A stretch of 20,485 bases of DNA from Candidatus Woykebacteria bacterium GWB1_45_5 (lineage in GTDB: Bacteria > Patescibacteriota > Microgenomatia > Woykebacterales > RBG-16-39-9b). Location of the stretch: contig MHCO01000023.1 in the NCBI GenBank assembly GCA_001816645.1, positions 1 to 20,485 on the forward strand, written 5' to 3'. The notes beneath the pieces were generated by a model. It saw only the letters and a program-made list of their open reading frames with translations, was not told the origin of the DNA and searched no databases. Positions 14,668 through 20,485 of this stretch are shown here, one piece after another. The first letter of the stretch is position 1. Every line of letters begins with the position of its first letter. The position numbers and the translations under genes are program-made.

Positions 14668-14671
14668 TGTG

Positions 14672-14983
14672 ATGAAAATATTTGTTGACTCTAGGATTGA
14701 GAGTTTTCTAGATAAGCTAACTTCGGTTGAAAAAGCTAGACTGCGGCGGTATAGAAAACTTTTAGAAGAATATGGACTTTTCCTGCCCGAGCCGTACCTA
14801 AAAAAGTTAGGCAAAGACCTTTGGGAACTTCGACCTGGGAACGTGAGAATTTTATTTACCGGTAAGAAAGATAAAATTATTTTTGCCCATGCTTTTTATT
14901 AAAAGACACAGAAAACACCGGCCAAGGATTTAAGGGTAGCAAAAAGTCGAATTGTGGAGTACGAAAAGGAAAGCCTCTTATGA
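14672..14983 (+). pseudogene. HigB/RelE-superfamily toxin (Gp49-like) interrupted by an in-frame TAA
   Basis: The 76 residues from ATG 14672 to TAA 14900-14902 match the N-terminal three quarters of a Gp49/HigB mRNA-interferase toxin: KKLGKDLWELRPGNVRILF and IIFAHAFY. Directly after the TAA the same frame continues KTQKTPAKDLRVAKSRIVEY to a TGA at 14981-14983. This is just the C-terminal part expected of the family (F-x-K-K-T-x-K-T-P-x-x-x-I-x-x-A). The full frame would end by overlapping the antitoxin ATG (ATGA), the usual coupling. So one nonsense codon, probably from AAA, splits an otherwise intact gene. A truncated product may still be made; GTG 14669 is an alternative start. Confidence 0.8.
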
Positions 14984-15279
14984 GAAAAAATAAAATCAAA
15001 TTGATTCCATTTGAAAAAATTGAGAGACGCTGGGCGAAAAATCCAACCATCCAAAAAGTTTACGAAGAGCTAGAGCCTGAATACCAACTCGTAAAAAGTT
15101 TAATTGAAATACGGGTTAAAAAGAATTTGTCGCAAGAAGAGCTTGCGGAAAAAGTTGGGATGAAGCAACCGGTGATTTCTCGTATTGAATCAATGCACTC
15201 ATTGCCATCGGTAGCGACTCTTAAGAAGATTTCCAAAGCCCTTGGAGAACCACTTCTCATCCGCTTTGGTTCTAGATAG
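14980..15279 (+). CDS. HigA-type XRE-family antitoxin
   Basis: 99 residues with a Cro/C1-type helix-turn-helix at about 42-90: RVKKNLSQEELAEKVGMKQP, then SRIESMHSLPSVATLKKISKAL. It would bind and neutralise the toxin and repress the operon through the palindrome at 14645-14664. The ATG overlaps the read-through end of the toxin frame, and AAGGA lies 9-14 nt upstream. The N-terminal 40 residues probably contact the toxin. The reading frame is intact even though the toxin is broken. Confidence 0.88.
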   Translation: MRKNKIKLIPFEKIERRWAKNPTIQKVYEELEPEYQLVKSLIEIRVKKNLSQEELAEKVGMKQPVISRIESMHSLPSVATLKKISKALGEPLLIRFGSR

Positions 15280-15327: not shown

Positions 15328-15467
15328 ATGGCATTATTATAATAGCTTATAAAAGAGTTGTCAACGTTTAGGCTAGTTAATCAAAGGGAAGTTGGCGGCA
15401 AAAGAGTGAATAAATCCTTCTTACTCCAAAAATCCCCGAAGGCTTTCTATCAACCGATGGGTTTTTA

Positions 15468-15476
15468 TGCTAAAAT
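15468..15476 (+). promoter_or_regulatory. candidate promoter of the restriction-modification operon
   Basis: TGCTAAAAT, the same extended -10 form as at 11953 and 12493. It would give about 50 nt of leader before ATG 15533, with no Shine-Dalgarno seen. The rest of 15328-15532 holds nothing else I can assign. Confidence 0.45.
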
Positions 15477-15532
15477 TAAGGTTGAATCCTGCCTGATTGT
15501 TACGGTGGGATTTTTTGATAAGAGCTTAAATT

Positions 15533-15721
15533 ATGAAAAGAAACAGGATTAGTTCCACAGCAATATTTCTACTTGGAGTTGTTTTAGTTTCCTTCATTGT
15601 TACCGTTGCTAATACTATAAAATCTGACGACCTTCCCGCTAAAGGTGGATATTACGTTCAGACAACTACTGCTACACCTGGTAATATTGGTACTAGCGCT
15701 ATAACCACGACAACCCTATGA
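15533..15721 (+). CDS. small single-pass membrane protein (62 aa)
   Basis: A short basic N-terminus (MKRNR), one hydrophobic segment at about 9-27 (IFLLGVVLVSFIVTVAN), then a Thr/Gly-rich tail likely outside the membrane (TTTATPGNIGTSAITTTT). No family recognised. Its stop TGA overlaps the methyltransferase ATG as ATGA, so they are very probably translated together. Such a protein is not a normal part of a type III restriction system; it may anchor or sense for it, or be an unrelated passenger. It could also be read as a lipid-free signal peptide product, since there is no lipobox cysteine. Confidence 0.6.
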   Translation: MKRNRISSTAIFLLGVVLVSFIVTVANTIKSDDLPAKGGYYVQTTTATPGNIGTSAITTTTL

Positions 15722-17664
15722 GAAACGACTCTGTAACCAAAGAAGAATTAGAAAAAATTGAAGAAGAGTCTGGGAAGCAGGCAAGACCGGACCAAAAAGC
15801 AGTTGTTACTGTTTCTCCAAAGCTAAGGAAAAGGCTGACCAATTTACCAGATCCTAGCAACCCGCCTCTTGGTTGGGACGAACATAAAGGATTTGGTGCT
15901 GTGTATCCTTATTTGAAAGTTCCGGGACTTCATCCAAGAAACCACGGGGATACTGTCATTTTTAATGATCAAGAATTGCCAGCCAATAGGCTCTATCTTG
16001 GCGACAATCTAGAAGTTTTGCGGACATTACCTGCAGAGTCAATTGATCTTATCTACATTGATCCTCCGTTTTTCTCTGGTAGAAATTACAACGTTATCTG
16101 GGGTGATACAAACGAAGTGCGTACATTTGAGGACATTTGGGAAGGCGGGATTACCACATACCTGATCTGGCTAAACGCTCGCCTCTGGGAAATGCGCAGA
16201 GTCTTAAAAAAGACAGGTTCTATTTATGTCCACTGCGACTGGCACGCTAGCCATTACATTAAAACCGAAATGGATAAAATTTTTGGCTATGATATGTTCA
16301 AAAATGAAATAATCTGGTGGTACAGAAAATGGAGTTCAAGTAATAATAGATTTTTAAGGAATTATGACGCGATACTATTCTATTCTAAAAGCGAAGAGAA
16401 TATCTTCAATGTACAGTACACCGAGTTAGCTGAAAGTACGAAGAAACGATTTAGCGGGAAAACACAGGTTTGGGCTGATGAGGCACGCACTCGGAAAATA
16501 ACTATTGACGTTGAATCAAAGGGAGCGTACATGCCAGATGTTTGGAGCATAAATTATCTTCCAGGGGCTTCCAGTGAAAAAATTGGTTACCCCACACAAA
16601 AACCGGAAGCCCTCCTAGAAAGAATTATTAAAGCCTCAAGTAATGATGGTGAGGTGGTTGCCGATTTCTTTTGTGGTGGAGGTACAACACTAGCTGTAGC
16701 ACAGAAACTTAAAAGGAAGTTTATTGGTTGTGATTCTTCTAGAGTGGCTATTTCAGTAACTTTAGACAGATTAGTAAAACTTGGCGAAGAAATGAGTGGG
16801 GTTAAAAGCAACATTTCGTTAGATGGAAAGCCGTTTCAGTTTGGGTTACAGATGGAAGGCACCGTTGAAAAGGTTCCAAATATTGAGGTTTGGTATCTGG
16901 GCGTCTATCCAGTTGAGAAGTTCCAGAATTCAGAGCAAGAAGAATTTAATGATTTTGTTCTTACTGCTTATGGGGCTAGTAAAAATACTGGAGAAGGCCT
17001 CACAAGTGGTTTTCGACCACCAGGGCAACAAGAACCAATTCTAGTTGGCCCATCAAACCCAAATGAGACTATAAACGCACAAGATATTAAAAAGTTTTTT
17101 GATGAGGTAAAAGAAAAACTTGAGCCAAATAAACTGGTTAGGGCCAAAATAGTGGCTTGGCGATTTTCTAGACAAGTCTTAGCTTATATTAAGACCTTGA
17201 AAAATTACGCGGAGAAATACAATTTGCCACTGGAGTTGGAAGCCATACCGCTTGATTCTAAAGAGTTTAGGGCACGGATTCTGCAAAGGATGCCGGATAT
17301 TGAAGAAAACGAGTTTTTCCTAAGATTTTCCAAAGCACCAGTCATTGGAGATGTAAAAGTAAAGAAAACCGGACCGCTTGAATGCGAATTTGAAGCAATA
17401 GATGCCCTTTCGACTAATGAAGATGGTTGGTTGGTCAATTGCCAGTGGGATTTTGATTATCAAGAAGGCCACTTTGCAGCAGATAAAGATTATGTTTTGT
17501 CTAGAGAAAAGAAACAGGATAAAAAGCACGGAGAAATATTTGAAGCAGTTTTGAAAGCTAAGCATAAGTTTGAGAAAACGGGCGAATATACGGTTGCTTG
17601 CAAAGTTCAAGATAATTTAGCAGGCGAGACCATACTAAGCAGGAAGGTTGAGGTGAATAATTGA
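15718..17664 (+). CDS. type III-like Mod DNA methyltransferase
   Basis: 648 residues. A beta-class N6-adenine/N4-cytosine methyltransferase: the catalytic motif DPPF (115-118, in LIYIDPPFFSGRNY) precedes the S-adenosylmethionine motif DFFCGGGTT (317-325), preceded by YPTQKPEALLERII (291-304). This order is that of type III Mod. After residue 380 comes a long extra region: an alpha/beta module (about 388-520) and a C-terminal part with W-D-F-D-Y and HKFEKTGEYTVACKVQDN, resembling a PKD-like beta-sandwich. Target recognition probably involves residues 190-290 and the C-terminal part. It overlaps the small membrane gene by ATGA and ends 1 nt before the next gene. The DNA target is unknown. Confidence 0.9.
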   Translation: MRNDSVTKEELEKIEEESGKQARPDQKAVVTVSPKLRKRLTNLPDPSNPPLGWDEHKGFGAVYPYLKVPGLHPRNHGDTVIFNDQELPANRLYLGDNLEVLRTLPAESIDLIYIDPPFFSGRNYNVIWGDTNEVRTFEDIWEGGITTYLIWLNARLWEMRRVLKKTGSIYVHCDWHASHYIKTEMDKIFGYDMFKNEIIWWYRKWSSSNNRFLRNYDAILFYSKSEENIFNVQYTELAESTKKRFSGKTQVWADEARTRKITIDVESKGAYMPDVWSINYLPGASSEKIGYPTQKPEALLERIIKASSNDGEVVADFFCGGGTTLAVAQKLKRKFIGCDSSRVAISVTLDRLVKLGEEMSGVKSNISLDGKPFQFGLQMEGTVEKVPNIEVWYLGVYPVEKFQNSEQEEFNDFVLTAYGASKNTGEGLTSGFRPPGQQEPILVGPSNPNETINAQDIKKFFDEVKEKLEPNKLVRAKIVAWRFSRQVLAYIKTLKNYAEKYNLPLELEAIPLDSKEFRARILQRMPDIEENEFFLRFSKAPVIGDVKVKKTGPLECEFEAIDALSTNEDGWLVNCQWDFDYQEGHFAADKDYVLSREKKQDKKHGEIFEAVLKAKHKFEKTGEYTVACKVQDNLAGETILSRKVEVNN

Positions 17665-17665
17665 T

Positions 17666-18028
17666 ATGGATTTAAAATTTTTGATTCAAGTTTTGGCACC
17701 ACCTGTTATCGCTGCACTGGTAGCTATTATAGTTGCTTTTTGGCAATTCCGAAAAAGAAAAGAAGAGGAGAAAAAAGTTGAATCGTTAAAAGTTTTGCTT
17801 GGTACAGTTAAAGGTTGGAGAGAATACATTCAAAGTGCCGCAAACGCAAATACTTTACTACGCAATCATATAAGAGGGAGAACGGATGAAGGTAAAGATC
17901 TAACTAAGTTTAGTTCACTAGCCGACGTGGAATCAGCAGTCGAAACTAACGGCGCTTATCTAAATGGTTTGCATGTTGGGGTGGAAAAGGAGTTAGAAGA
18001 AATAGAAAAAGTATTGAAAGAAAAATAA
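17666..18028 (+). CDS. single-pass membrane protein with coiled-coil domain (120 aa)
   Basis: A hydrophobic segment at about 6-26 is followed by a very basic/acidic stretch (FRKRKEEEKKVESLK) that keeps the rest in the cytoplasm. Helical segments follow to the end, finishing with VEKELEEIEKVLKEK. The middle holds WREYIQSAANANTLLRNHIR. No named family. It sits 1 nt after the methyltransferase stop and its TAA touches the nuclease ATG, so it belongs to the same operon. Tethering the restriction complex to the membrane is a reasonable guess, no more. Confidence 0.7.
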   Translation: MDLKFLIQVLAPPVIAALVAIIVAFWQFRKRKEEEKKVESLKVLLGTVKGWREYIQSAANANTLLRNHIRGRTDEGKDLTKFSSLADVESAVETNGAYLNGLHVGVEKELEEIEKVLKEK

Positions 18029-18895
18029 ATGACTAACCAACTTAACCAAAAACTAATCAGCGCTATTAACGTTCAAGGTATACTTCTTCAAGAGAAGTGT
18101 GCGGATATTTTCGCTAAAGAAGGTTACAAAGTTATTACCGAGTACCCAGTAATGTTCCCAAAACCTTCCTTTGGAAATTTCGGTAAGGACGTTGTCATTG
18201 ACATTTGGGCGCGAAAGAATCTAACAAATGTGCAGATAGACTTTTTGGTAGAGTGCAAAAAGGCAGACCCAAAGCTTAAAAATTGGGTATTTTTCAAAGA
18301 TAAGTTTAGTTACTCAATTGGTAATGACAACATAAAATTCGTCAAGGGACCAGGGGACAATTGGAACACCAATACAATATTAGTTGATATACAAAAAGAG
18401 CTTAAGCTTGAACACGGAGACCGCTGTTTCATGGGAATTGAGTTAAAGGAAAAATTTAAAAAAGGCCCAGAAAAGGATGACACGGTAGCTACAACTCAAA
18501 GAATAAGTGATGCAAGTTATCAAGCCGTGCAGGCTGCAAACGGGACCTTTGACGAGTATGGAGAATTTTACTCTAAATTACAATCTACCCCCCTTCAAAA
18601 AAACGAACAAAATCTTTTTATTTTGCCCTTAGTTGTTACTACGGCAAACTTACTTGTAGCAGATTATGACATAGATAAAATAAGTGAGAATGGTGGTTTA
18701 GATGCTAAAGATGTATCTTTTGCAGAAAAGGATTTTATTCTCTATAACTATTCAATCCCAGGACATATAAGATTCCCAATGTTAGAAGGTGATATACCAA
18801 ATAGAACTTTGGAAACCAGACTAGGTTATAAGAAGACTTTGATAATAATTTGTTCAGTAAACTATCTTAAAAAATTTATTAATAAATTCAAGTAG
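18029..18895 (+). CDS. putative PD-(D/E)XK restriction endonuclease-like protein
   Basis: 288 residues. An N-terminal segment resembles the restriction endonuclease fold: Glu22 in a helix (LLQEKCADIFAKEGY), Asp58 at the end of a strand (KDVVIDIWA), and the Glu75-Cys-Lys77 pair in a strand (IDFLVECKKA), i.e. E...D...ExK. The rest (about 100-288) has no recognised match. No signal peptide or membrane segment. It follows the membrane/coil gene with no gap and its TAG touches the helicase ATG. In classical type III systems the nuclease is a domain at the end of Res, so a separate protein would be a variation; whether Res also has one cannot be seen, because that gene runs off the window. Confidence 0.7.
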   Translation: MTNQLNQKLISAINVQGILLQEKCADIFAKEGYKVITEYPVMFPKPSFGNFGKDVVIDIWARKNLTNVQIDFLVECKKADPKLKNWVFFKDKFSYSIGNDNIKFVKGPGDNWNTNTILVDIQKELKLEHGDRCFMGIELKEKFKKGPEKDDTVATTQRISDASYQAVQAANGTFDEYGEFYSKLQSTPLQKNEQNLFILPLVVTTANLLVADYDIDKISENGGLDAKDVSFAEKDFILYNYSIPGHIRFPMLEGDIPNRTLETRLGYKKTLIIICSVNYLKKFINKFK

Positions 18896-20485
18896 ATGCA
18901 ATACTTTTTTAAACAACACGAAGAAAATTTTAGGGAGTGGCGGAAAAACGGGTACCGCGGAATTAAAGACGAGGCTATAGCTTTCTTAAAACATATAAAT
19001 TCTCCAAGCTTCAAACCAAAACTTGATCTTTTCAACGAAAAACAGTGGAAAAAGATCCAAGTTGAGGCGATTGAAAGATGTGTTTACGCTTTTGAAATTT
19101 TGGGAGAGAAAGACCTCCTGACAAATATTGTAACTGGCGGTGGCAAAACTACAATTATTGGTGCGATGATTGCTTACATGATGATCGTGCATGAGCAAAA
19201 TAAATTTTTGATTTTAACCCCCAACACTATTGTTCGCTCAAGATTGCAAGATGAGTTTGAGCAAAATTCACCGATATACATTTATGATATTTTCCCATTT
19301 TTCTTTAATTCTTACTTACCTCTAAAAAACCGAATAACGATTCACATAATGAAAGCTGACAATCCAAACCCCACAGCGATTAGAAATGACACGATTTTAA
19401 TTGGTAATATTCACCAAATTTATGAACGAACTGATAACTGGAAAGTTTTAATGGAAAATGTAGATCAGCTGGTGATCTTTAATGATGAAGCGCATAACAC
19501 GAAAGCCGAGATGTATAACGATCTGATAAACAAATTGAAGCCAAAAAGGTTTTTTAGGCTCGATACTACGGCAACTCCAGATAGACTTGATGGTTTGCAT
19601 CCAGATAGCAAAATGGTTTTCGTCTATGGAATTGCTGAAGCAATGAAAGATAAAGTTATTAAGAGAATTGTGGTATTTCACCCGGATGTAACAAAGGTGC
19701 ATTTAACCTATGAAGATTTGGAAACAGGTAAAACAATCTCTGCCGAAGAAGTTCCTTGGGAAGAAATCGAAAGACGCAAAATTCCAGCCAGACGCTATAT
19801 TACCAGTGAAAAGCCTATGCGCCAGCAGATAGCGATCGCTTTGGAACTTTTAAAACAGCAATGGATGAGAGTACCAAAAGATAAGACAGGTAAACCACGT
19901 TTCAAACCATTGCTTTTTGTCATCGCCTTGTCAATTGAAGATGCCAAAAGGATTGCCAATGCTTTGGAGGGCATAGGCCCGAAATATGGTGTGAATAATA
20001 TTCTTTTAGTCCATAACGAACAGGAAGAAGAATTAAATGAACAAGCAATGGAGTTAAATAAAAACCCTCACCCAAAGTGGGACGCGGTTGTGTCCGTTTT
20101 GATGCTTAGGGAAGGTTGGGATGTGAGGAATGTTGCTGTCGAGCTGCTGTTCAGAAAATTTACCTATAAAAAAGTTGACGACCAAACCTTTTCAGTATAT
20201 GGCCCGCAGGTTATTGGTAGGGGTTTGCGCAGGATGAGTAAAAACCCGGAAGAGTGGGAGTCACTTTTTGTTATTGACCACCCGATTTTAAAGCACCAAT
20301 GGCTTTGGGATCATCTAAAAGCTACTGAATATCCCGAGGGTCTAGATCCAGCCAATATAATTGTTGATGAAGAAAAACTGCCAAAAGAGGAAGAAACTAT
20401 TGAGAAGGTGGAAGAAGGAGAAAAAACATTAGAGGAGGCAGAAAAACTGGATATATCTTCCCGCCCACCTACACCAGAGCCAGAA
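18896..20485 (+). CDS. Res-like superfamily 2 helicase, 5' part
   Basis: Open to the window edge, 530 codons seen. ATG immediately follows the upstream TAG. Helicase motifs are all present: Walker A TGGGKT (80-85), DEAH (197-200), the TATP motif (225-228), motif V-like LMLREGWDVRNV, and motif VI QVIGRGLRR (438-446). This set is that of type III Res subunits and related ATP-dependent DNA translocases. After motif VI comes IDHPILKHQWLW and an acidic, Glu/Lys-rich linker near the edge. A further domain, perhaps the nuclease, could follow outside. It would work with the Mod protein upstream for ATP-dependent restriction. Confidence 0.9.
   Translation, partial: MQYFFKQHEENFREWRKNGYRGIKDEAIAFLKHINSPSFKPKLDLFNEKQWKKIQVEAIERCVYAFEILGEKDLLTNIVTGGGKTTIIGAMIAYMMIVHEQNKFLILTPNTIVRSRLQDEFEQNSPIYIYDIFPFFFNSYLPLKNRITIHIMKADNPNPTAIRNDTILIGNIHQIYERTDNWKVLMENVDQLVIFNDEAHNTKAEMYNDLINKLKPKRFFRLDTTATPDRLDGLHPDSKMVFVYGIAEAMKDKVIKRIVVFHPDVTKVHLTYEDLETGKTISAEEVPWEEIERRKIPARRYITSEKPMRQQIAIALELLKQQWMRVPKDKTGKPRFKPLLFVIALSIEDAKRIANALEGIGPKYGVNNILLVHNEQEEELNEQAMELNKNPHPKWDAVVSVLMLREGWDVRNVAVELLFRKFTYKKVDDQTFSVYGPQVIGRGLRRMSKNPEEWESLFVIDHPILKHQWLWDHLKATEYPEGLDPANIIVDEEKLPKEEETIEKVEEGEKTLEEAEKLDISSRPPTPEPE

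Follow-up and report, generated by a model that had tools for sequence, protein, structure and literature searches.

A probable split type III-like restriction operon with an exchangeable cargo slot in a Candidatus Woykebacteria genome

In type III restriction-modification (R-M) systems, the nuclease is the C-terminal domain of Res, and ATP-dependent cleavage needs two inversely oriented sites. We analysed an operon in a 20,485-nucleotide (nt) stretch of DNA (the window) from Candidatus Woykebacteria bacterium GWB1_45_5, which comprises the first 20485 bases of contig MHCO01000023.1 (C23, extending to 22627) in a genome of 882 kb and 55 contigs. This operon probably encodes a type III-like system with Res divided into a helicase of 691 amino acids (aa) and a small separate nuclease (sNuc, 123 aa), and with a slot between Mod and the helicase for exchangeable cargo genes that would act as a second line of defence.

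Guilt-by-embedding or Hma-embedded candidates, reportedly described by Payne et al. in a 2024 preprint (as cited in PMC12988326 and PMC12255303), are genes from one defence system that lie among the genes of another. According to two other papers, PrrC is encoded inside the EcoprrI locus, kept inactive by the R-M enzyme and released when a phage blocks restriction, and Ymh is listed as found in operons with R-M (PMC3710099, PMC12707154). In BREX and BREX-related systems, diverse nucleases lie inside the core loci as backup effectors (PMC12839542). That R-M, Hma and BREX loci can contain embedded defence genes is already known (PMC3710099, PMC12255303, PMC12988326, PMC12839542). We found no published description of the present gene set or of its slot in the open-licence literature, a scope that leaves out preprints.

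The locus resembles the EcoP15I Mod-Res system in that Mod is an amino-methyltransferase whose central recognition region varies (a PF01555 protein that matches EcoP15I Mod), in that its partner, in the place of Res, is a superfamily 2 (SF2) helicase of the ResIII family with PF04851 and conserved motifs, and in that most sNucs match RE_endonuc. It differs in that the nuclease is not fused to the C-terminus of Res but encoded by a small gene after the helicase, in that cargo lies between Mod and helicase, and in that the helicase has no PDB sequence match to EcoP15I Res, for which reason we call the system type III-like. As in PrrC-EcoprrI and the R-M loci with HEPN genes, a putative effector gene lies inside an R-M locus, and Ymh is a cargo family here too; however, the host of PrrC is a type IC system with one effector superfamily, whereas here many unrelated genes occupy one place in a split type III-like gene set. 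The system also differs from Hma: a 530-aa part of the helicase, compared with PADLOC models at E 0.01, matched seven families, none of them Hma, and thus showed no HmaA-type helicase. Nucleases inside core loci are a feature shared with the BREX-embedded effectors, but none of the six genes here was recognised as a BREX core gene.

The helicase and its detached nuclease

From a helicase-alignment scan of one genome per species (84,980 species), we retained the best 80 of 120 confirmed relatives; our own locus and a viral contig brought the total to 82 loci (L124 duplicates L047 and is counted nowhere). The usual gene order in the relatives is Mod-helicase-sNuc. Mod is present in 78/82 loci and all three genes, hereafter the chassis, in 74/82; three loci lacking Mod (L043, L069 and L082) start shortly before the helicase, and in the fourth (L061) the helicase is broken. 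The loci occur in Patescibacteria, Nitrospirota, Chloroflexota, Bacteroidota and archaea, among others. Within our own class, pieces of a near relative were found in 2 of 372 other genomes, both partial, with identities of 60 and 70%. Together the loci define a split system of three genes that is related to type III restriction and occurs in both bacteria and archaea.

The helicase matches PF04851 (ResIII, E 4.6e-21), and its full 691 aa shows ResIII and DEAD-type domains in Pfam. The window edge falls 486 bases short of the end of this gene, and the operon continues past it. The initial annotation, made from the window, had described a five-gene operon in which cleavage may be carried by a separate protein, and had advised searching the rest of the helicase gene for a C-terminal nuclease domain. 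The five open reading frames (ORFs) and their junctions (-4, 1, 0 and 0 nt) are present as it described them, but they are not the whole operon, since a sixth gene, sNuc, overlaps the helicase end beyond the window. Pfam detected no nuclease domain in the full 691-aa helicase. Across 76 aligned helicases (our own sequence and relatives of at least 600 aa), the N-terminal motifs are conserved, and no D, E or K is conserved at 70% in residues 501-691. With no nuclease domain in the helicase, cleavage would indeed reside on a separate protein.

sNuc lies downstream of the helicase in 77/82 loci, our own included. In four of the others (L058, L084, L106 and L115), the helicase match stops at residue 471-644 and 4 to 672 bases remain, too little for sNuc to show there; the fifth is L061, with its broken helicase. 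The sNuc of our locus carries E26, P63-D64 and E78-x-K80 and matches TnsA-like_N (E 6.5e-9). E26, D64, E78 and K80 are invariant in 75/75 aligned sequences (74 loci and our own; L067 and L072, with partial sNuc, were left out). All 75 match PF08722 (TnsA-like_N), and 61/75 match PF19778 (RE_endonuc), which we take to be the endonuclease domain of type III Res. Both marks of the PD-(D/E)XK superfamily, the E...PD...ExK residues and a domain match, are thus found in sNuc.

The most economical reading of these sequences is that sNuc corresponds to the nuclease domain of Res, encoded as a gene of its own. The initial annotation had suggested as the separate cutter a 288-aa protein encoded between Mod and helicase. 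That there is a separate nuclease holds, but the cutting protein is most likely sNuc and not the 288-aa protein, the former being conserved in 77/82 loci and the latter found beside this system only at our own locus.

Exchange of the slot contents and of the Mod centre

Across loci, the distance between the stop of Mod and the start of the helicase falls into two classes. We compared a close clade (helicase at least 65% identical to our own; 14 loci with a measurable gap) with 64 other loci; L043, L061, L069 and L082 lack a measurable Mod-helicase gap and belong to neither set. An insert of 348-2738 bp is present in 13/14 close-clade loci. In the distant loci, an insert of more than 300 bp was found in 10/64, one of which (L078, gap 341 bp) is counted without holding a convincing cargo gene; the other 54 have no such insert (13/14 vs 10/64, Fisher p 6e-8, the related loci not being independent). 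On a tree of 80 helicases of at least 450 aa, built by a quick method, the close clade received an SH-aLRT of 100 and comprised 15 rows (13 with insert, 1 without, 1 unknown), and the insert label changed 11 times, compared to 20 in shuffles. At the control junction between helicase and sNuc, a gap of more than 300 bp was found in 2/77 loci, and in both the helicase is split over two ORFs.

The contents of the slot differ from locus to locus. DNA likeness was found in 1 of 78 pairs among the 13 inserts (L051/L052, 83% over 711 bp). L044 and L046 are 96.6% identical in helicase and 95.1% in sNuc, yet the former carries TIR and DUF3800 cargo and the latter UvrD-like and DUF3800 cargo. Turnover of the slot is thus fast relative to the chassis. 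Other genes are nested between the core genes in many relatives, which is the pattern looked for in embedded defence genes.

The close-clade inserts hold 18 cargo genes. Pfam was run on 16 of them, all but the two of L052, and gave a domain for 12; PADLOC was run on 10. Pfam recognised HNH in L041, Ymh in L042, CAP12/Pycsar TIR and DUF3800 in L044, a UvrD-like helicase and DUF3800 in L046, a trypsin-like peptidase in L047, DUF5677 in L048, DUF3800 in L049, and WYL and NYN in L051, which the L052 insert resembles in DNA. The cargo of L057 is an AAA_15/AAA_21 ATPase, which resembles AriA, Old and GajA according to PADLOC. The cargo proteins of L045 (251 aa) and L050 (108 aa) have no Pfam domain and, by eye, show hydrophobic stretches. 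DUF3800 proteins thus recur among otherwise unlike inserts. TIR, OLD, NYN, HEPN and DUF3800 proteins have roles in defence. Among the distant inserts, 7/10 hold a gene with a PIN, NYN, PDDEXK_3, AAA, SLFN_AlbA_2 or nucleotidyltransferase domain (L090 and L105 were not scanned).

PADLOC matches at E 1e-7 or better were obtained for 6/9 chosen cargo genes and 0/9 control genes (best control 6.6e-5). As controls we took the longest ORF lying at a good distance from the operon, in nine of these loci; 9 of 10 such genes were scanned, an 86-aa ORF of L045 being dropped, and the controls are longer than most cargo genes.

Mod matches the DNA methylase domain PF01555 (E 2.9e-49), and its PDB sequence relatives are CcrM, RsrI and MboIIA and, more weakly, EcoP15I Mod (E 6.4e-10). 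In five locus pairs, identity calculated over 30-residue windows fell to 7-36% at residues 211-240 and 241-270, whereas it was 87-100% at 151-180 and 301-330; the remaining windows were more variable, as low as 36%. Replacement of the centre (residues 181-300, window 16258-16617) was seen among L044, L046, L048, L050, L057, L041 and L051. This region is presumably the target-recognition region, and divergence between nearly identical flanks is the pattern of a swapped one. Specificity and cargo, then, both vary on one chassis. Over 12 of the 14 close-clade loci (L049 and L052 have a partial Mod and were excluded), Mod and helicase identities were correlated (Spearman 0.71; 1 of 2000 permutations equally high); the value for sNuc and helicase was 0.43, calculated without permutation.

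The close helicase clade (L040-L052 and L057, 65-73% identical to our own) spans Patescibacteria, Nitrospirota, Planctomycetota and Desantisbacteria, and no close-clade helicase was found in the six same-family genomes searched. This distribution suggests that the operon was transferred between phyla.

Other arrangements were seen upstream of the helicase in further loci. In L126 (8141-9962, minus strand), from the same class as our own genome, genes for an SLFN_AlbA_2 protein of 485 aa and a membrane-type protein of 102 aa lie before a helicase start whose ORF ends after 61 codons. An ATPase gene precedes the helicase in the distant loci L067:7297-9978, L082:31-1239 and L106:8811-10001, once together with SLFN_AlbA_2; where scanned (L067 and L106), it is AAA_16 or BrxC/D-like. 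Such loci are perhaps a subtype of the system.

Cargo genes as a probable second line or as possible passengers

The arrangement suggests how the system may work. Mod would recognise its site through the replaceable central region and methylate it; helicase and sNuc, together with Mod, would sense unmodified sites, use ATP and cut, as expected from their families. At our locus, cargo and chassis are probably transcribed together and coupled in translation (junctions of 1, 0 and 0 nt). By analogy with PrrC beside EcoprrI, the cargo products would most likely add a second layer of defence, acting alongside restriction or after it. A functional slot would make one restriction chassis the shared trigger or vehicle of many unrelated effectors, and any gene between this Mod and helicase would be a candidate defence gene.

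A serious rival, to which we give nearly even prospects, is that the Mod-helicase gap of the same split chassis merely tolerates inserts, so that the cargo gains expression without any functional link to restriction; its standing is due to the chassis part, which it shares with the explanation above. The 54/64 distant loci without insert are consistent with it, as are the lack of relationship among most cargo genes and the one close-clade locus without insert, L040, whose gap is 1 bp in an otherwise complete operon and from which it follows that the chassis does not need cargo. Also in its favour, the 288-aa protein has relatives in five other genomes, and these do not lie beside R-M genes. 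Mere tolerance is harder to reconcile with an occupancy of 13/14 in one clade alongside an empty helicase-sNuc junction, and with the many cargo genes from defence-type families.

A more far-reaching version of the functional slot seems doubtful. Here the chassis, with two exchangeable modules (the Mod recognition region and the effector slot), would itself gate the plugged-in effector, which would be freed when restriction is blocked or foreign DNA is engaged. The effectors would be TIR, the OLD-like ATPase, the HEPN-type Ymh, NYN, DUF3800, a protease or, at our locus, the pair of a membrane-type and a PD-(D/E)XK-like protein.

A split type III-like operon with second-line cargo remains our preferred explanation, and several findings besides L040 weigh against it. 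Mod is nearer to CcrM and RsrI than to EcoP15I Mod, and the PDB search with the helicase gave no convincing relative even at E 10, EcoP15I Res included, so that type III is a resemblance. The predicted structure of the helicase was too poor for use. The PADLOC sample was chosen by ourselves (10/18 close-clade cargo genes and one from the distant L067), and the tally becomes 6/11 when our own two cargo genes are added. The 62-, 120- and 288-aa proteins of our locus have no match in Pfam, PADLOC or NCBIfam, and its cargo is thus not assigned to a known defence family. In the 288-aa protein, Q21 stands at a position that is E in at least 90% of the family, which makes the activity of this protein uncertain. 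Finally, defence-type domains (KAP NTPase, YhcG-type PDDEXK and OLD-like ATPase) also occur after sNuc, at L041:6577-9471, L044:6779-7960 and L055:9313-10992; the Mod-helicase gap may therefore not be the only such place, and the region after sNuc is a possible second cargo place.

Cargo and neighbourhood of the Woykebacteria locus

The nuclease-like motif noted earlier in the 288-aa protein proved real: D58, E75 and K77 (D...E-C-K-K) do not vary across 83 aligned sequences, and structure prediction gives a fold similar to that of PD-(D/E)XK proteins, so that both fold and D...(D/E)xK residues of that superfamily are found. The family numbers 250 proteins at E 0.001, one of them named from Candidatus Beckwithbacteria, and we put this uncharacterised PD-(D/E)XK-like family forward as a defence candidate. 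McrBC is among the best fold matches, and the protein might back up sNuc in this operon alone, either with a second cutting specificity or by cutting modified DNA that escapes restriction; we consider such a role unlikely.

The 120-aa ORF is coding by its codon score (0.228 vs 0.022). Its product has no convincing relative, with five matches at E 0.0015-0.008 in 372 other genomes. For the 62-aa ORF the score is ambiguous (0.165 vs 0.133 in the best other frame), and we found neither a relative in 136 other genomes nor a similar ORF in the related loci compared; it is a doubtful gene, probably outside the system. The score was trained on window genes including Mod and helicase and is circular for these two, but not for the 62-, 120- and 288-aa ORFs. 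That the two smaller proteins are membrane proteins is a judgement by eye alone.

A membrane-tethered type III variant, with the 288-aa protein as restriction nuclease and the small membrane proteins as anchors, would suit the PD-(D/E)XK-like fold and residues of that protein and the tight gene junctions, but is very improbable given the conserved nuclease gene after the helicase in 77/82 loci, the failure to find the 288-, 120- and 62-aa proteins in related operons and the doubtful 62-aa ORF. The initial annotation had proposed this tethering; it is not supported, as no homologue of either membrane-type protein was found beside Mod in related loci. Unrelated proteins with hydrophobic stretches occupy the slot in 2/13 close-clade inserts (L045 and L050), which a variable slot fits better than a tether. 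The same annotation held that a full Res with its own nuclease, together with membrane genes that do not recur, would indicate an ordinary type III system with passengers; the outcome is mixed, as the membrane genes do not recur but Res has no nuclease domain. The features of the operon are listed in Table 1.

Table 1. Features of the operon (window coordinates unless C23 is given)
Feature	Position	Strand	Basis or remark
62-aa ORF, hydrophobic stretch	15533..15721	+	overlaps Mod start by 4 nt; doubtful gene
Mod, amino-methyltransferase, 648 aa	15718..17664	+	PF01555, PDB relatives, start codon backed by alignment of relatives
Mod residues 211-270, core of exchangeable central region	16348..16527	+	identity windows across five locus pairs
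Mod-helicase cargo slot, 1231 bp	17665..18895	+	insert in 13/14 close-clade loci
Cargo 1, 120-aa protein, N-terminal hydrophobic stretch and charged helical part (by eye)	17666..18028	+	coding score
Cargo 2, 288-aa PD-(D/E)XK-like protein, D58/E75/K77, Q21	18029..18895	+	alignment, predicted fold
Helicase, ResIII family, 691 aa	18896..20971 (window part to 20485)	+	PF04851, conserved motifs
sNuc, 123-aa PD-(D/E)XK-type protein	C23 20947-21318, outside window		overlaps helicase end by 25 nt

Upstream of the operon lies a toxin-antitoxin-like pair, a Gp49-like protein (PF05973) and an HTH_3 protein (window 14669-14902 and 14980-15279, plus strand). Promoter-like sites numbered 18 in the scanned 7-kb region, compared to 14.4 in shuffles. 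A perfect sigma-70 consensus (TTGACA, 17 nt, TATAAT) at window 15336-15364 on the minus strand is directed towards the HTH gene and away from the operon.

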